From contig NZ_JBAGBW010000021.1 in NCBI RefSeq assembly GCF_039822205.1, forward strand, positions 1 through 31,312: DNA of 31,312 nt. Direction: 5' to 3'. The translations under genes were made by a program, and so were the position numbers. This stretch comes from Thermodesulfobium sp. 4217-1 (lineage in GTDB: Bacteria > Thermodesulfobiota > Thermodesulfobiia > Thermodesulfobiales > Thermodesulfobiaceae). Below, piece after piece: positions 22,021 to 28,252 of the stretch (positions are counted from its first letter, which is position 1; the number at the start of each line of letters is the position of its first letter). Under the pieces are notes generated by a model that was given only the letters and a program-made list of their open reading frames with translations, made no database searches and was not told the DNA's origin.

Positions 22021-23844
22021 TTAAAATTTCCAAAAATTAACAATTTTATCAAAACCTACTGATAACAGAATATTTGAATTACTTTTAAATTTAATATCTG
22101 CAATCTTATCATAGTGTCCGACAAATTGTTTTATTATCTCAGATGATACAACATCATATAGATAGATTTCATCATCGCAGGAAAACGCAAAATACATTCC
22201 ATCATCGGAAAAGGTCAATAAGTCTATCTTCTTTAGGTCAAATTTTATTTCAGCCAATAGTTTTCCCAATCTGTCATACATTTTTAGAACTTTATCATTG
22301 TAATATCCTATAATATTTAGCCTTGAGCAAACAGAAAACTTTCCATCGTCAATTCCAGTATTAAAGCAGTCAAATAAACTCTTAAGTTCTGCATCATATA
22401 TAAAAATCTGACCATCCTTAGTAGAAAGATAAAACCTATTTTTAAATAACAAAACTTTAAATGGGCTAAATTCAATTTCGAATGAATTTATGGAAATTTC
22501 TTTTTTTGTCAAATCTAATAAGTATAGTTTATTTTCTTTTTCAGTCCAGTAGGCAGCACTGTCAGCTGCTGATAGAGCAGTTTCAGCGTTTTTAACATTG
22601 ATAATGCTAAAATTTTTCAAATCTAAGCCATTATAAACATAGACATTATAATTTTTATTAAAACAGAGCAACTTTTCAGAATCAGTGTGAACAAAAATTT
22701 TATTAATTGGTACTTCTGGCTCCAATATCTCAGAAAAATTTACTTCTTGACTATTTAAAGAGCACTTCTTCAAGATCCCAGACTTTGTACCAAAATAAAC
22801 TTTTTTTATATCCTCTGAAATCAGGGCTGTTGAAATCTGCTCATTAAAATTGAAAATTTTTTTATTTGCTAAATCTGAGCTACTTTTGTTGTATTTAATA
22901 ATTATAGATTTTGATAAAGGGGAGTCTTTTTTTGTTAATATCTTAAGATTTGATGAAGAATTTATTACAGACATTGCGATATCTGAGTAGTTTACGAATT
23001 TAGCATCAAGACAGGTTCCATAAGTATTAGCAGTATAGATAGATTGCAGAGAGTCAAGCTTATAGATATTCAATGAGTTTGAATGAGATTCGTCTGTAGA
23101 CAGAACATATTTAACATCTACGGAGGCTGACAGATTAACTATCTTATTGTTGCTCATAAAAATTTTATTTTCTGAAATATTGGTATTGAAGTTAAAAATT
23201 TCAATCAAGCCATTCTCAAATCCTAAAAAAATTAAGTTTTCATTTAGCTTTATGTCATAAGAGGTAATTTTCAAGTTATTTTCATAGAGCAGAAGTTTTT
23301 TATTATTTTTTAATGACAAGAAGTAGATCTTGGAATCGTCTGTAAGATAAGATATTAAATCTAATCCATCAAAATAAAAAATTTTTCTTATCGGTTTATT
23401 CTCAATTTTTTTGTGATATATAATTTTTCCTTGAAGAATAGAATAAATAAAAATACATCCATCCCAAGTGCCGACTACTAAAAATTCTTCGTTGTCGCTG
23501 GATGATATTGCGATAATAGGGTTTTTAGATAAAAATATCTTTCCAAGAAAAAGTCCATCTAACATTGACCAAAAATTTATTGTGCCATCGAAAAAGCCCA
23601 GAATAAAATATTTGGCATTTTTGGATATTGATGAAACGGTAGGAAAGGAAGTATTCCAATATATCTTGTGCAATATATCAAAATCAATTTTTTTTATATC
23701 AGGAGATTTCTTATCCGATTTGAGATCAATCTCCATAAAATCTATTTCTTCAATGCTTCTAATAATAATCTTGTCCAAAATTAAAGAATTGGAAGAAATA
23801 TTAAACATCTTCGAATCAATAGGTTCTAAAAATTCATTTTTCAC
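22021..23844 (-). CDS. WD40-like beta-propeller protein
   Basis: A 607-residue protein without signal peptide or membrane segments, built of degenerate beta-propeller repeats. The clearest are GFFDGTINFWSM near residue 87, GTWDGCIFIYS near 128, GFENGLIEIFN near 211, and the C-terminal VGHYDKIADIKFKSNSNILLS followed by VGFDKIVNFWKF. These fit WD40 blades; the length suggests two seven-bladed propellers or one plus an irregular part. Lysine, asparagine and isoleucine content is high, as in its neighbours. Its ATG overlaps the stop of the J-domain gene by four bases (ATGA), so the two products are made together and may interact. WD40 propellers are usually scaffolds; I see no catalytic domain. 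Confidence 0.78.
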   Translation of the reverse strand: MKNEFLEPIDSKMFNISSNSLILDKIIIRSIEEIDFMEIDLKSDKKSPDIKKIDFDILHKIYWNTSFPTVSSISKNAKYFILGFFDGTINFWSMLDGLFLGKIFLSKNPIIAISSSDNEEFLVVGTWDGCIFIYSILQGKIIYHKKIENKPIRKIFYFDGLDLISYLTDDSKIYFLSLKNNKKLLLYENNLKITSYDIKLNENLIFLGFENGLIEIFNFNTNISENKIFMSNNKIVNLSASVDVKYVLSTDESHSNSLNIYKLDSLQSIYTANTYGTCLDAKFVNYSDIAMSVINSSSNLKILTKKDSPLSKSIIIKYNKSSSDLANKKIFNFNEQISTALISEDIKKVYFGTKSGILKKCSLNSQEVNFSEILEPEVPINKIFVHTDSEKLLCFNKNYNVYVYNGLDLKNFSIINVKNAETALSAADSAAYWTEKENKLYLLDLTKKEISINSFEIEFSPFKVLLFKNRFYLSTKDGQIFIYDAELKSLFDCFNTGIDDGKFSVCSRLNIIGYYNDKVLKMYDRLGKLLAEIKFDLKKIDLLTFSDDGMYFAFSCDDEIYLYDVVSSEIIKQFVGHYDKIADIKFKSNSNILLSVGFDKIVNFWKF

Positions 23845-24650
23845 AGGTCAATCTTTCCCAAGTTTTTAAGTTTTTTATTATATTTGTCTATCTCTAAGAG
23901 AATTGATGATTCAATTTTTGATAATAGATCTATGCCATATTCTAACATCTCATCAACCTTTTTATAAAGATTATAAATATTTAAACTCTTTAATTCTTGA
24001 ATTTTGATACTAACTTCTTCAATCTCATTATTTAAAGAAACTATCTTATTTCTTAGTATTTTTATTTGAGAAGCCAAAGAATCGTCATTTTCACATCCGA
24101 GAGCCTCAACCAATTCTTGTAATTTTCTAATGTCCAGCTGATCGTAGGCCAGGTTAATTTCTGACATTAAATTATGGAAAATAATTCTTTCCTGCTCAGA
24201 CCTAGCCTTATCTGGATGGAATCTGGAAGCAAGTTTCCTATATATTATCTTAATTTTGTCATAACTTGCGGGTACTAAATCTTCTGGCACTTCTTCGATG
24301 TCTTCATCGCCCGAAAGGTTTGAGCTGATCTCATCTTCAATTTTATTTAATTCCATTTCTTTTTCAAATAGAGATTCTTTAATATGATGTTTTATGAAGT
24401 CATCGTTTTTTTGATTAAGACTGTTATCCAATTGAATTTTAGCAAATTTTAATTTTAGCCTGTCAAGCTCCAAATACAGCTTTCCTATTCTATCCTGATA
24501 TGTCCTATAAAAGAAAGATAGTTTATTTTTAAGAGAAAGATAATCGCTTTTAATATTTTCAAGATCACGTTTTAATTTGTTAATATGTATTTGCAACTTT
24601 AAGATTTCATTGTTCATATCATATTCAATTTTTTTATCTTCATATTCCAT
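23841..24650 (-). CDS. Coiled-coil protein with central J domain
   Basis: About 269 residues. Long charged heptad-like helices at roughly 5-110 and 195-245 flank a J domain at about 128-182, recognised by YDKIKIIYRKLASRFHPDKA with the HPD tripeptide at 145-147. HPD stimulates DnaK ATPase, so the protein is probably a specialised DnaK co-chaperone; it lacks the G/F, zinc-finger and client-binding domains of DnaJ. An upstream in-frame TTG exists at 24749, but that extension runs into the divergent aguA start and encodes an unlikely hydrophobic leader. ATG at 24650 has no Shine-Dalgarno, and a TATAAT at 24658-24663 (minus strand) places the transcript start about at the ATG. The four-base overlap with the propeller gene implies a paired function. 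Confidence 0.78.
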   Translation of the reverse strand: MEYEDKKIEYDMNNEILKLQIHINKLKRDLENIKSDYLSLKNKLSFFYRTYQDRIGKLYLELDRLKLKFAKIQLDNSLNQKNDDFIKHHIKESLFEKEMELNKIEDEISSNLSGDEDIEEVPEDLVPASYDKIKIIYRKLASRFHPDKARSEQERIIFHNLMSEINLAYDQLDIRKLQELVEALGCENDDSLASQIKILRNKIVSLNNEIEEVSIKIQELKSLNIYNLYKKVDEMLEYGIDLLSKIESSILLEIDKYNKKLKNLGKIDL

Positions 24651-24709
24651 AGTAACAATTATATATAAAGAAGTTAAAATTATGTAATATAGAAAAATTG
24701 GAGGTTTAA

Positions 24710-25747
24710 TTGAATAATCTAATTTCAGAATGGGAACAACAAGATGCATTAATGCTCGTATATCCTCATGAGAAATCTGATTGGAACGATAATCTTTTAA
24801 AAGTCCGAACGTTATATCACGAGCTGATAAAGAAAGCCATCAAGTTTGGCAAAATAATATTAATAATACCTGAGAATATGAATTATAAAAATGAATTGAA
24901 TATCGATGATAAGAATCTGATATGCATTAAAGCTAAAACTAATGACACCTGGATTAGAGATAATGGACCAATTTTTATAAAAGAAAATGGGATTTTTACA
25001 GCTTTAAACTTTAAATTTAACGGTTGGGGAAATAAATTTAACTATAAATTAGATAACGATTTAAATAACAGGATATTTTCATCCAATTTACTTGCAAAAA
25101 GTGTAATGAAAAAAAATTTAAACTTTGTGTTGGAGGGGGGGAGTATTGATAACAATGGCGATGGAATAATTCTAACAACAGAAAATTGCCTACTAAATAA
25201 AAATAGAAACCCTCAGTATTCAAAAGATGCAATTGAAGGACTATTTTATGAGGTATTTGGACAAAATAAAATATTGTGGTTGAAGAACGGAAAATTAATG
25301 GGTGATCATACAGATTCTCATATTGATATGTTAGCAAAATTTGTAAACAAAGATACTATTGTGTACGTCAAATCAGCAAATAGAAATTACCCATATTTTA
25401 ATGAGCTAAAATTAATGGAAGAGGAATTGAAGGATTTTAGAGACTGCAATGACAAACCCTTCAACCTCGTACCTATAATTCTGCCTGAGATCAAAGATGG
25501 ACAAGGAAATTATTTGCCCGCTACTTATACTAATTTTTTAATATTTAATTCTGCTGTAGTTGTACCCATTTACAACTCAAAAGAAGATATACAAGCTATG
25601 AGCGTATTTGAAAGCATTTTCCTTAACAAAGAAATCATTCAAATTGACTGTAGAATATTAATTAGCCAGGGTGGAGCTATACACTGCACTACAAATAATA
25701 TTCCAAAGGGATTTCTAAACCAGGAGGTTTTAATAGATGAGCATTAG
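24710..25747 (+). CDS. aguA: Agmatine deiminase
   Basis: A 345-residue enzyme of the peptidylarginine/agmatine deiminase family that converts agmatine to N-carbamoylputrescine and ammonia. Family landmarks: WEQQDALMLVYPH near residue 8, TWIRDNGPIFI near 83, FNGWGNKFNYK near 104, LEGGSID near 141, HTDSHIDMLAKF near 202, and the C-terminal GGAIHCTTNNIP with the nucleophilic cysteine. His and Asp of HTDSHID complete the active site. Translation starts at TTG with ggaggt at 24699-24704. The end overlaps aguB by 11 bases. The divergent J-domain gene begins 59 bases away. Arginine decarboxylase, needed to supply agmatine, is not in the window. Confidence 0.92.
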   Translation: MNNLISEWEQQDALMLVYPHEKSDWNDNLLKVRTLYHELIKKAIKFGKIILIIPENMNYKNELNIDDKNLICIKAKTNDTWIRDNGPIFIKENGIFTALNFKFNGWGNKFNYKLDNDLNNRIFSSNLLAKSVMKKNLNFVLEGGSIDNNGDGIILTTENCLLNKNRNPQYSKDAIEGLFYEVFGQNKILWLKNGKLMGDHTDSHIDMLAKFVNKDTIVYVKSANRNYPYFNELKLMEEELKDFRDCNDKPFNLVPIILPEIKDGQGNYLPATYTNFLIFNSAVVVPIYNSKEDIQAMSVFESIFLNKEIIQIDCRILISQGGAIHCTTNNIPKGFLNQEVLIDEH

Positions 25748-26606: not shown

Positions 26607-26854
26607 ACTTGTGATCGGGTATATTTGTAAATTTCATTTGTTTGGACATGTAGATCAAAGCTGCACAATTAAAGCTTTATTTGAAATAATCTTTATAAAA
26701 TAGTAGATATAAATAGGTTTTTTTAAAAAGTTTTTCGTTAAAAATTGAATTGCACTTGAGATTATTACTTTATTTCATTAACAACGAATAAATTAAAAAT
26801 TTAAAAAATAATTGACAAAAAAAATTTTTAAACTATAATATTTCTTAGTCACTT
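26607..26854. other. 248-base non-coding gap before the tRNA pair
   Basis: A very AT-rich stretch with no open frame that looks like a gene and no clear hairpin terminator after aguB. The only defined signal I see is the tRNA promoter at its right end. Confidence 0.5.
26812..26839 (+). promoter_or_regulatory. Strong promoter of the tRNA-Leu/tRNA-Gly unit
   Basis: Consensus TTGACA (26812-26817), a 16-bp spacer and consensus TATAAT (26834-26839). Transcription would begin about 9 bases before tRNA-Leu. It is the best sigma-70 promoter in the window. Confidence 0.8.
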
Positions 26855-26938
26855 GGGCGAGTGGCGGAATGGCAGACGCGCCAGGCTTAGGACCTGGTGG
26901 ATAAAACCGTGGGGGTTCAAGTCCCTTCTCGCCCACCA
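26855..26938 (+). tRNA. tRNA-Leu (TAG)
   Basis: A class II tRNA with a long variable arm. Acceptor GGGCGAG pairs with CTCGCCC, anticodon stem CCAGG/CCTGG holds loop CTTAGGA with anticodon TAG, and the T arm has GGTTCAAGTCC. The 3' CCA is encoded. Confidence 0.96.
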
Positions 26939-26948
26939 GAAAATAAAT

Positions 26949-27023
26949 GCGGGAATAGCTCAGCGGTAGAGCATCGCCTTGCCAAGGCGAGGGTCGTGGG
27001 TTCGAATCCCATTTCCCGCTCCA
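26949..27023 (+). tRNA. tRNA-Gly (GCC)
   Basis: Acceptor GCGGGAA pairs with TTCCCGC, the D arm is AGCTC..GAGC, the anticodon loop TTGCCAA gives GCC, and the T arm is GTGGGTTCGAATCCCAT. CCA is encoded. It lies ten bases after tRNA-Leu and shares its promoter. Confidence 0.97.
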
Positions 27024-27062
27024 TATTCTAAATAAAATAATGAACTTATAATAATAAACAAA

Positions 27063-27079
27063 TTCTTCTTGAGGAGGAA
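27063..27079 (+). promoter_or_regulatory. Hairpin covering the dapL ribosome site
   Basis: TTCTTC (27063-27068) can pair with GAGGAA (27074-27079; one U-G pair) around a 5-base loop, burying most of the GAGGAGG ribosome site of dapL. A short, weak stem, but precisely placed. Confidence 0.35.
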
Positions 27080-27085
27080 CCAAAA

Positions 27086-28252
27086 ATCAGAACTGCAAAC
27101 AGAATCCAAAACGTACCACCTTATCTATTCTCTGAGATTGACAAAAAGAAAAATATGCTTAGAGCACAAGGAAAAGATCTAATAGATTTCGGAATTGGAG
27201 ATCCAGATCTACCAACTCCAATGTTCGTGGTAGATGCAATGAAAAAATATGTAGAAGACCCGAAAAATCATAGATACCCACCATACGAAGGAACCCTATC
27301 CTTCAGAAAAACCGTTTCTGAATGGTTTTTGAAAAGATTTAATGTAGCTCTCGATCCTGACAGTGAAATAATGGCCCTCATAGGATCCAAAGAAGGCATC
27401 GCTCATCTTCCTTTTGCATTCGTTGACGAAGGAGATTACACACTTGTACCGAATCCTGCATATCCGGTTTACAACGTAGCTACCATTCTCTCAGGTGGCA
27501 AACCATATTTTATGCCTTTAAATGATAGCAATAACTTTTTGCCAGAATTAGAAAAAATTCCAACTCAGGTCTTAGAAAATACAAAAATTTTATTTTTAAA
27601 TTATCCAAATAATCCAACAGGAGCTGTGGCAAGTTTAGAGTTTTTTGAAAAAGCAGTTAATTTTGCTAAAAAATATGACTTTCTAATTTGCCACGATATG
27701 GCTTATTCTGAAATGACTTATGATAATTACGTAAGCCCTAGTTTATTGCAGGTCGATGGGGCAAAAGAAGTAGCCATTGAATTTCATTCACTCTCAAAGA
27801 TGTTCAATATGACAGGTTGGAGAGTTGGTTTTGCAGTTGGTTCCAAATTAGCCATAAAGGCTTTGGGAATTATTAAAACCAATATTGACTCGGGACTTTT
27901 TGTGGCTATCCAGCAGGCATCAGAAATTGCTTTACAGGATGACTCTAATTTCATTGCGAAGATGAACAAGATTTATATAAAGAGAAGAGATCTTTTAGTA
28001 AGCGGTCTTCAAAGCCTTGGCTCAGACATAGTAGCTCCCAAAGGATCATTTTACCTCTGGGTAAAAACTCCTACTGGTTTTAATGCTTCTACTTTTACAG
28101 AAAGATTGATGTTAGAAACAGATATAGTTGTAACGCCTGGTAGCGGATATGGGTCTGAGGGTGATGGATATGTTAGATTTGCTATTACCGTAAGTGAAGA
28201 AAGAATTGGAGAGGCCATTGAAAGAATGAAGTCAAGAAGCATCCAATTTTAA
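27086..28252 (+). CDS. dapL: LL-diaminopimelate aminotransferase, ATC start
   Basis: A class I PLP aminotransferase that makes LL-diaminopimelate from tetrahydrodipicolinate in one step of lysine and cell-wall synthesis. Landmarks: IDFGIGDPDLPTP, YPPYEGTLSFRKTVSEW, LNYPNNPTGAVAS, and the PLP lysine in HSLSKMFNMTGWR, then VGF. The first canonical start codon, ATG at 27155, would delete about 23 residues of the family's N-terminus. Reading upstream in the same frame gives RTANRIQNVPPYLFSEIDKK, which matches the conserved opening of DapL (RxADRIxxLPPYLFxEID). The only plausible start there is ATC at 27086, seven bases after the strong gaggagga site at 27071-27078. The resulting 388 residues match the usual length. 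Either ATC is a real non-canonical start or an ATG was lost to a base error. The gene heads dapL-hflX-rho. Confidence 0.9.
   Translation: MRTANRIQNVPPYLFSEIDKKKNMLRAQGKDLIDFGIGDPDLPTPMFVVDAMKKYVEDPKNHRYPPYEGTLSFRKTVSEWFLKRFNVALDPDSEIMALIGSKEGIAHLPFAFVDEGDYTLVPNPAYPVYNVATILSGGKPYFMPLNDSNNFLPELEKIPTQVLENTKILFLNYPNNPTGAVASLEFFEKAVNFAKKYDFLICHDMAYSEMTYDNYVSPSLLQVDGAKEVAIEFHSLSKMFNMTGWRVGFAVGSKLAIKALGIIKTNIDSGLFVAIQQASEIALQDDSNFIAKMNKIYIKRRDLLVSGLQSLGSDIVAPKGSFYLWVKTPTGFNASTFTERLMLETDIVVTPGSGYGSEGDGYVRFAITVSEERIGEAIERMKSRSIQF

Follow-up and report, generated by a model that had tools for sequence, protein, structure and literature searches.

The dapL locus

The window, by which we mean the whole stretch of 31,312 nucleotides that was analysed, is contig C21 of a 2.0-Mb host genome in 69 contigs. 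On the forward strand it carries, from 5′ to 3′, a sigma-70-type promoter, a tRNA-Leu (TAG) gene (26855–26938), a tRNA-Gly (GCC) gene (26949–27023), and a predicted LL-diaminopimelate aminotransferase gene, dapL (27086–28252). The promoter (TTGACA-16-TATAAT; 26812–26839) matches the consensus at 12 of 12 positions, and G001 and G003, two of three further genomes of the same genus, share the conserved block. Both are complete, single-contig genomes that carry dapL; in the third, G002, dapL was not found, probably owing to an assembly gap.

The tRNA-Gly gene ends 62 nt 5′ of the dapL ATC described below, and no terminator-like site is seen between the two. Because the tRNA promoter is perfect and no terminator precedes dapL, the gene may be read from that promoter, which is the likely source of dapL mRNA by read-through. 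The arrangement of tRNA-Leu, tRNA-Gly, and dapL (26812–27086) is conserved in the three species and suggests a tRNA–mRNA co-transcript. Elsewhere in the window, a J-domain-like ORF (23841–24749, reverse strand) and an agmatine-deiminase-like ORF (24710–25747, forward strand) share 40 bases in head-to-head orientation with the starts as called, and one of these starts has therefore probably been placed too far upstream.

The dapL frame is open from an in-frame TGA (27041–27043) to the stop codon at 28250–28252. As the original prediction had it, no ATG, GTG, or TTG lies in frame between this TGA and the ATG at 27155–27157, which is codon 24 of the gene counted from an ATC at 27086–27088. The ATC is in frame with IRTANRIQNVPPYLFSEIDKKKN-MLRAQ..., the conserved N-terminus of DapL, and from position 27071 the window reads GAGGAGGAACCAAAA-ATC-AGA-ACT-GCA-AAC-AGA-ATC. 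A Shine-Dalgarno (SD) sequence, AGGAGG (27072–27077), is positioned 8 nt 5′ of the ATC. The strong site claimed in the original prediction is therefore present; the spacing of 7 given there counts from AGGAGGA, and that of 8 nt from AGGAGG.

Read from the ATC, the protein has 388 residues and matches the subfamily profile NF006756 over residues 2–383 with 591.7 bits, above the curated cut-off of 507, by which the gene is predicted to encode DapL. The match to the equivalog profile TIGR03540 scores 579.8 bits, just under the cut-off of 593.25, and PF00155 is matched as well. Residues 2–3 of the protein align with positions 2–3 of the profiles, indicating that the N-terminus is full-length and that, as had been claimed, its conserved part is encoded 5′ of the first ATG. 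A mechanical ORF caller places the start at 27155 and yields 365 residues; the 23 residues that it removes include this N-terminus, the very truncation that had been foreseen. Thus dapL, a gene of lysine and cell-wall synthesis, appears to start at a rare ATC codon.

The ATC is conserved in three species

The original prediction had proposed alignment with the dapL genes of close relatives as a check. The comparison comprises three loci, those of the window genome, G001, and G003, and the DapL protein is 86% identical to that of either relative. A separate scan of genome contigs gave matches in distant phyla only, with congeners absent from them. At the equivalent place, both G001 and G003 read GAGGAGGAACTAAAA-ATC-AGA, with AGGAGG 8 nt away as in the window. 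The order tRNA-Leu, tRNA-Gly, dapL is common to all three loci and is followed by a diverged spacer, after which comes a near-invariant block, TTGAGGAGGAAC(C/T)AAAAATCAGAA.

Since the window comes from a 69-contig assembly, the ATC might be a sequencing or assembly error for ATG. The same codon is found in two other genomes, each a single contig, and the chance of such an error is negligible.

The ATG at 27155 is the sole ATG near the 5′ end of dapL in the window genome, and a start there would leave the upstream stretch untranslated. However, this ATG is replaced by AAG or AAA in G001 and G003, where the first NTG 3′ of the ATC is codon 45, past the conserved GIGDPDLPTP, and no SD precedes 27155. 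From the ATC up to 27155, the three genes differ at 1, 2, and 11 sites in codon positions 1, 2, and 3, respectively, indicating that this stretch is translated in the dapL frame, in agreement with its alignment to the DapL profiles from residue 2–3. We therefore regard initiation at 27155 as very improbable. Together, the match among three species and the coding-like character of the upstream stretch exclude, for practical purposes, both a sequencing error and the downstream ATG.

Starts further upstream are not shared. An in-frame TTG is present 17 codons 5′ of the ATC in G001, and an NTG 29 codons 5′ of it in G003. Both are unconserved, and the window genome lacks any in-frame upstream NTG. 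The ATC itself is held fixed. The three dapL genes have 23 Ile positions in common, of which only eight use an identical codon throughout; codon 1 is alone among them in being ATC in each gene. The conserved SD at proper spacing and the lack of a fitting in-frame NTG are what would be expected of an AUH start (AUU, AUC, or AUA), and the initiation codon originally proposed thus holds in all three species.

Within the window, about 26 genes have an ortholog in the sample, and dapL is the only one without an NTG start close to where conservation begins; this count leaves out a large sensor-like ORF, which aligns only in part (46% identity), and an ORF that lies antisense across the tRNAs.

Other probable non-NTG starts in the genus

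G001 and G003 were scanned against each other for genes in which conservation of the coding frame sets in well before the first NTG common to both. The sample comprised 477 ortholog pairs in 600 kb of each genome and 506 pairs with 800 kb, the last 200 kb adding only about 29 orthologs because synteny broke; the scan covers about one third of the genus's genome. Gene names in the scan rest on reading of the N-terminus, except for DapL and IF3, which were assigned by family search.

Several genes other than dapL probably start at codons that gene-finding programs refuse. In four species, smc and yebC each have an ATT start behind GGAGG and at least 31 codons after the ATT without NTG. The next NTG in smc is 62–63 codons in, and the N-terminus of YebC is ISGHSKWANIKH, which we take to be the usual one. 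ATT starts with a conserved SD are also found in a glycosyltransferase gene (four species) and a sulfotransferase gene (three species). For a polyprenyl synthetase gene, CTG is the only SD-supported start in four species; its frame overlaps the 3′ end of smc. For a regulator-like gene, the start is TTG in three species and CTG in the fourth; infC has an ATA start in each of the three genomes of the genus in which it was read.

Three further candidates are less certain: an ATT or ATC start of rph, because an NTG lies 2–6 codons upstream in three of the four species; an ATA start of a pcnB-like gene, with an NTG 12 codons in; and a CTG start of an rqcH-like gene, with a weak SD. Two candidates were dropped. 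The SD of an ftsQ-like gene with a candidate CTG lies inside the apparent end of the upstream gene, and the substitutions there are not third-position biased; the fhs candidate is internal, with an upstream ATG in both species. A looser automatic filter admitted internal sites and was discarded.

In a control genus (G039 and G062, 400 kb each; GC content 43–45%, median identity 75%), only infC (ATA) has a non-NTG start among 387 gene pairs. A relA/spoT-like gene of the control genus has more than 50 codons without an in-frame NTG in both species, and a weak ATT candidate. The excess of non-NTG starts over the control genus is suggestive, not proven: the control is a single genus, less AT-rich and more diverged than the test genus, the criterion was set post hoc, and infC falls within the control sample but not within the test sample.

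Probable initiation at AUC

The initiator tRNA gene looks normal, with GGG-CT-CAT-AA-CCC as its anticodon arm; a pattern search found no initiator-like tRNA with another anticodon. Therefore, fMet-tRNA(CAU) probably reads AUC. We consider it highly probable that dapL is translated from the AUC at 27086 by this ordinary initiator, with the strong SD compensating, as part of a genus-wide habit of starting at AUU, AUC, AUA, and CUG. The initiator would read the codon with a mismatch at the third position, AGGAGG at 8 nt would offset the weak codon–anticodon match, and DapL would begin with methionine at 27086. Initiation would be expected to depend on IF3 and to be several-fold less efficient than at AUG. 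With dapL mRNA supplied by read-through from the strong tRNA promoter, the weak start would hold DapL output down and may set it at a modest level. The AUC would then belong to a habit of the genus in a small conserved gene set, rather than being a device specific to dapL.

IF3 discriminates against AUU, AUC, and AUA, and its own gene has an ATA start in this genus. The AUC of dapL could accordingly be regulatory, a form of the start-codon-dependent control suggested in the original prediction, such that dapL output tracks the activity or level of IF3 as in infC autoregulation and links the supply of lysine and peptidoglycan precursors to translation capacity. The start block of dapL is more conserved than the spacer 5′ of it, and the AUA start of ccpN in Staphylococcus aureus shows a medium-dependent effect (PMC13009471). 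However, the same class of starts includes the unrelated genes smc, yebC, and the sulfotransferase gene. In addition, the dapL leader is not structured (folding z-scores 0.33, 0.89, and 1.47), no Rfam leader was found 5′ of dapL, and the sequence would look alike under regulation, constitutively weak initiation, and tolerated drift. We think a regulatory role unlikely.

The checking of start codons may instead be relaxed in this genus, for example through changes in IF3, with the ATC of dapL being tolerated drift from ATG that the strong SD keeps usable. That roughly one third of the genome yields several AUH or CUG genes, compared with infC alone in the 387 control pairs, points in this direction, within the limits of that control given above. 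So does IF3 itself: in the genus, it is changed at ten positions whose conservation among 35 other IF3s is at least 80%. The changes include Tyr to Phe before the linker and His to Asn, and the C-terminal EGR motif has lost its Gly. With regard to start-codon checking, these departures are a lead only. Low IF3_C scores occur in other phyla too, and drift alone would not favour the strict conservation of the ATC. We regard relaxed checking as a real possibility, somewhat short of an even chance. A broader proposal holds that the start check is relaxed or re-tuned and that each genome has perhaps two dozen genes with AUU, AUC, AUA, or CUG starts, an IF3-dependent set that standard callers mis-annotate; it is put forward tentatively and is rather doubtful.

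On the preferred reading, initiation at AUC by the ordinary initiator behind a strong SD, smc, yebC, infC, and the rest of the wider set would offer a natural system for the effects of start-codon identity and IF3 on many genes. Callers restricted to ATG, GTG, and TTG truncate or misplace such proteins.

Comparison with known systems

In bacteria, starts at AUU, AUC, and AUA are rare but already known; what the genus would add is a new and larger set of this kind. To our knowledge, very few native AUC starts have been documented in bacteria; the one in dapL is kept in three species, in a gene of amino-acid and cell-wall synthesis. Our literature search returned no paper on the start codons of the probable genus.

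The classic case is infC, encoding IF3, which starts at AUU, AUC, or AUA and is autoregulated in Escherichia coli. Like infC, which in the genus itself starts at ATA, dapL has a strong SD ahead of an AUH start that is kept across species. Unlike IF3, DapL is a metabolic enzyme without a known role in initiation, and therefore no feedback loop is implied. A second case is pcnB of E. coli, whose AUU start limits expression (Binns and Masters 2002, cited in PMC13009471). It too is a housekeeping gene with a non-NTG start, and the pcnB-like gene of the genus seemingly starts at ATA; dapL is a different gene, with AUC in place of AUU.

Ribosome profiling in S. aureus identified four non-NTG starts, those of cvfC1 (AUU), ccpN (AUA), citZ (AUA), and infC (AUA) (PMC13009471). 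In this respect, the original statement that ATC starts are very rare stands for bacteria generally, but not for the genus, where several genes start alike. The S. aureus AUU and AUA starts, with extended SDs, give about 10% of the output of AUG in poor medium, the ccpN start gives up to 30% in rich medium, and the AUH starts of cvfC1 and ccpN are conserved between species (PMC13009471). The two sets share AUH starts with strong SDs, the lowered output being a feature of the S. aureus set. The S. aureus starts were found by ribosome profiling, whereas those of the genus were found by conservation. The S. aureus set comprises four sites, whereas the genus appears, apart from infC, to have six or more in roughly one third of its genome, including AUC and CUG.
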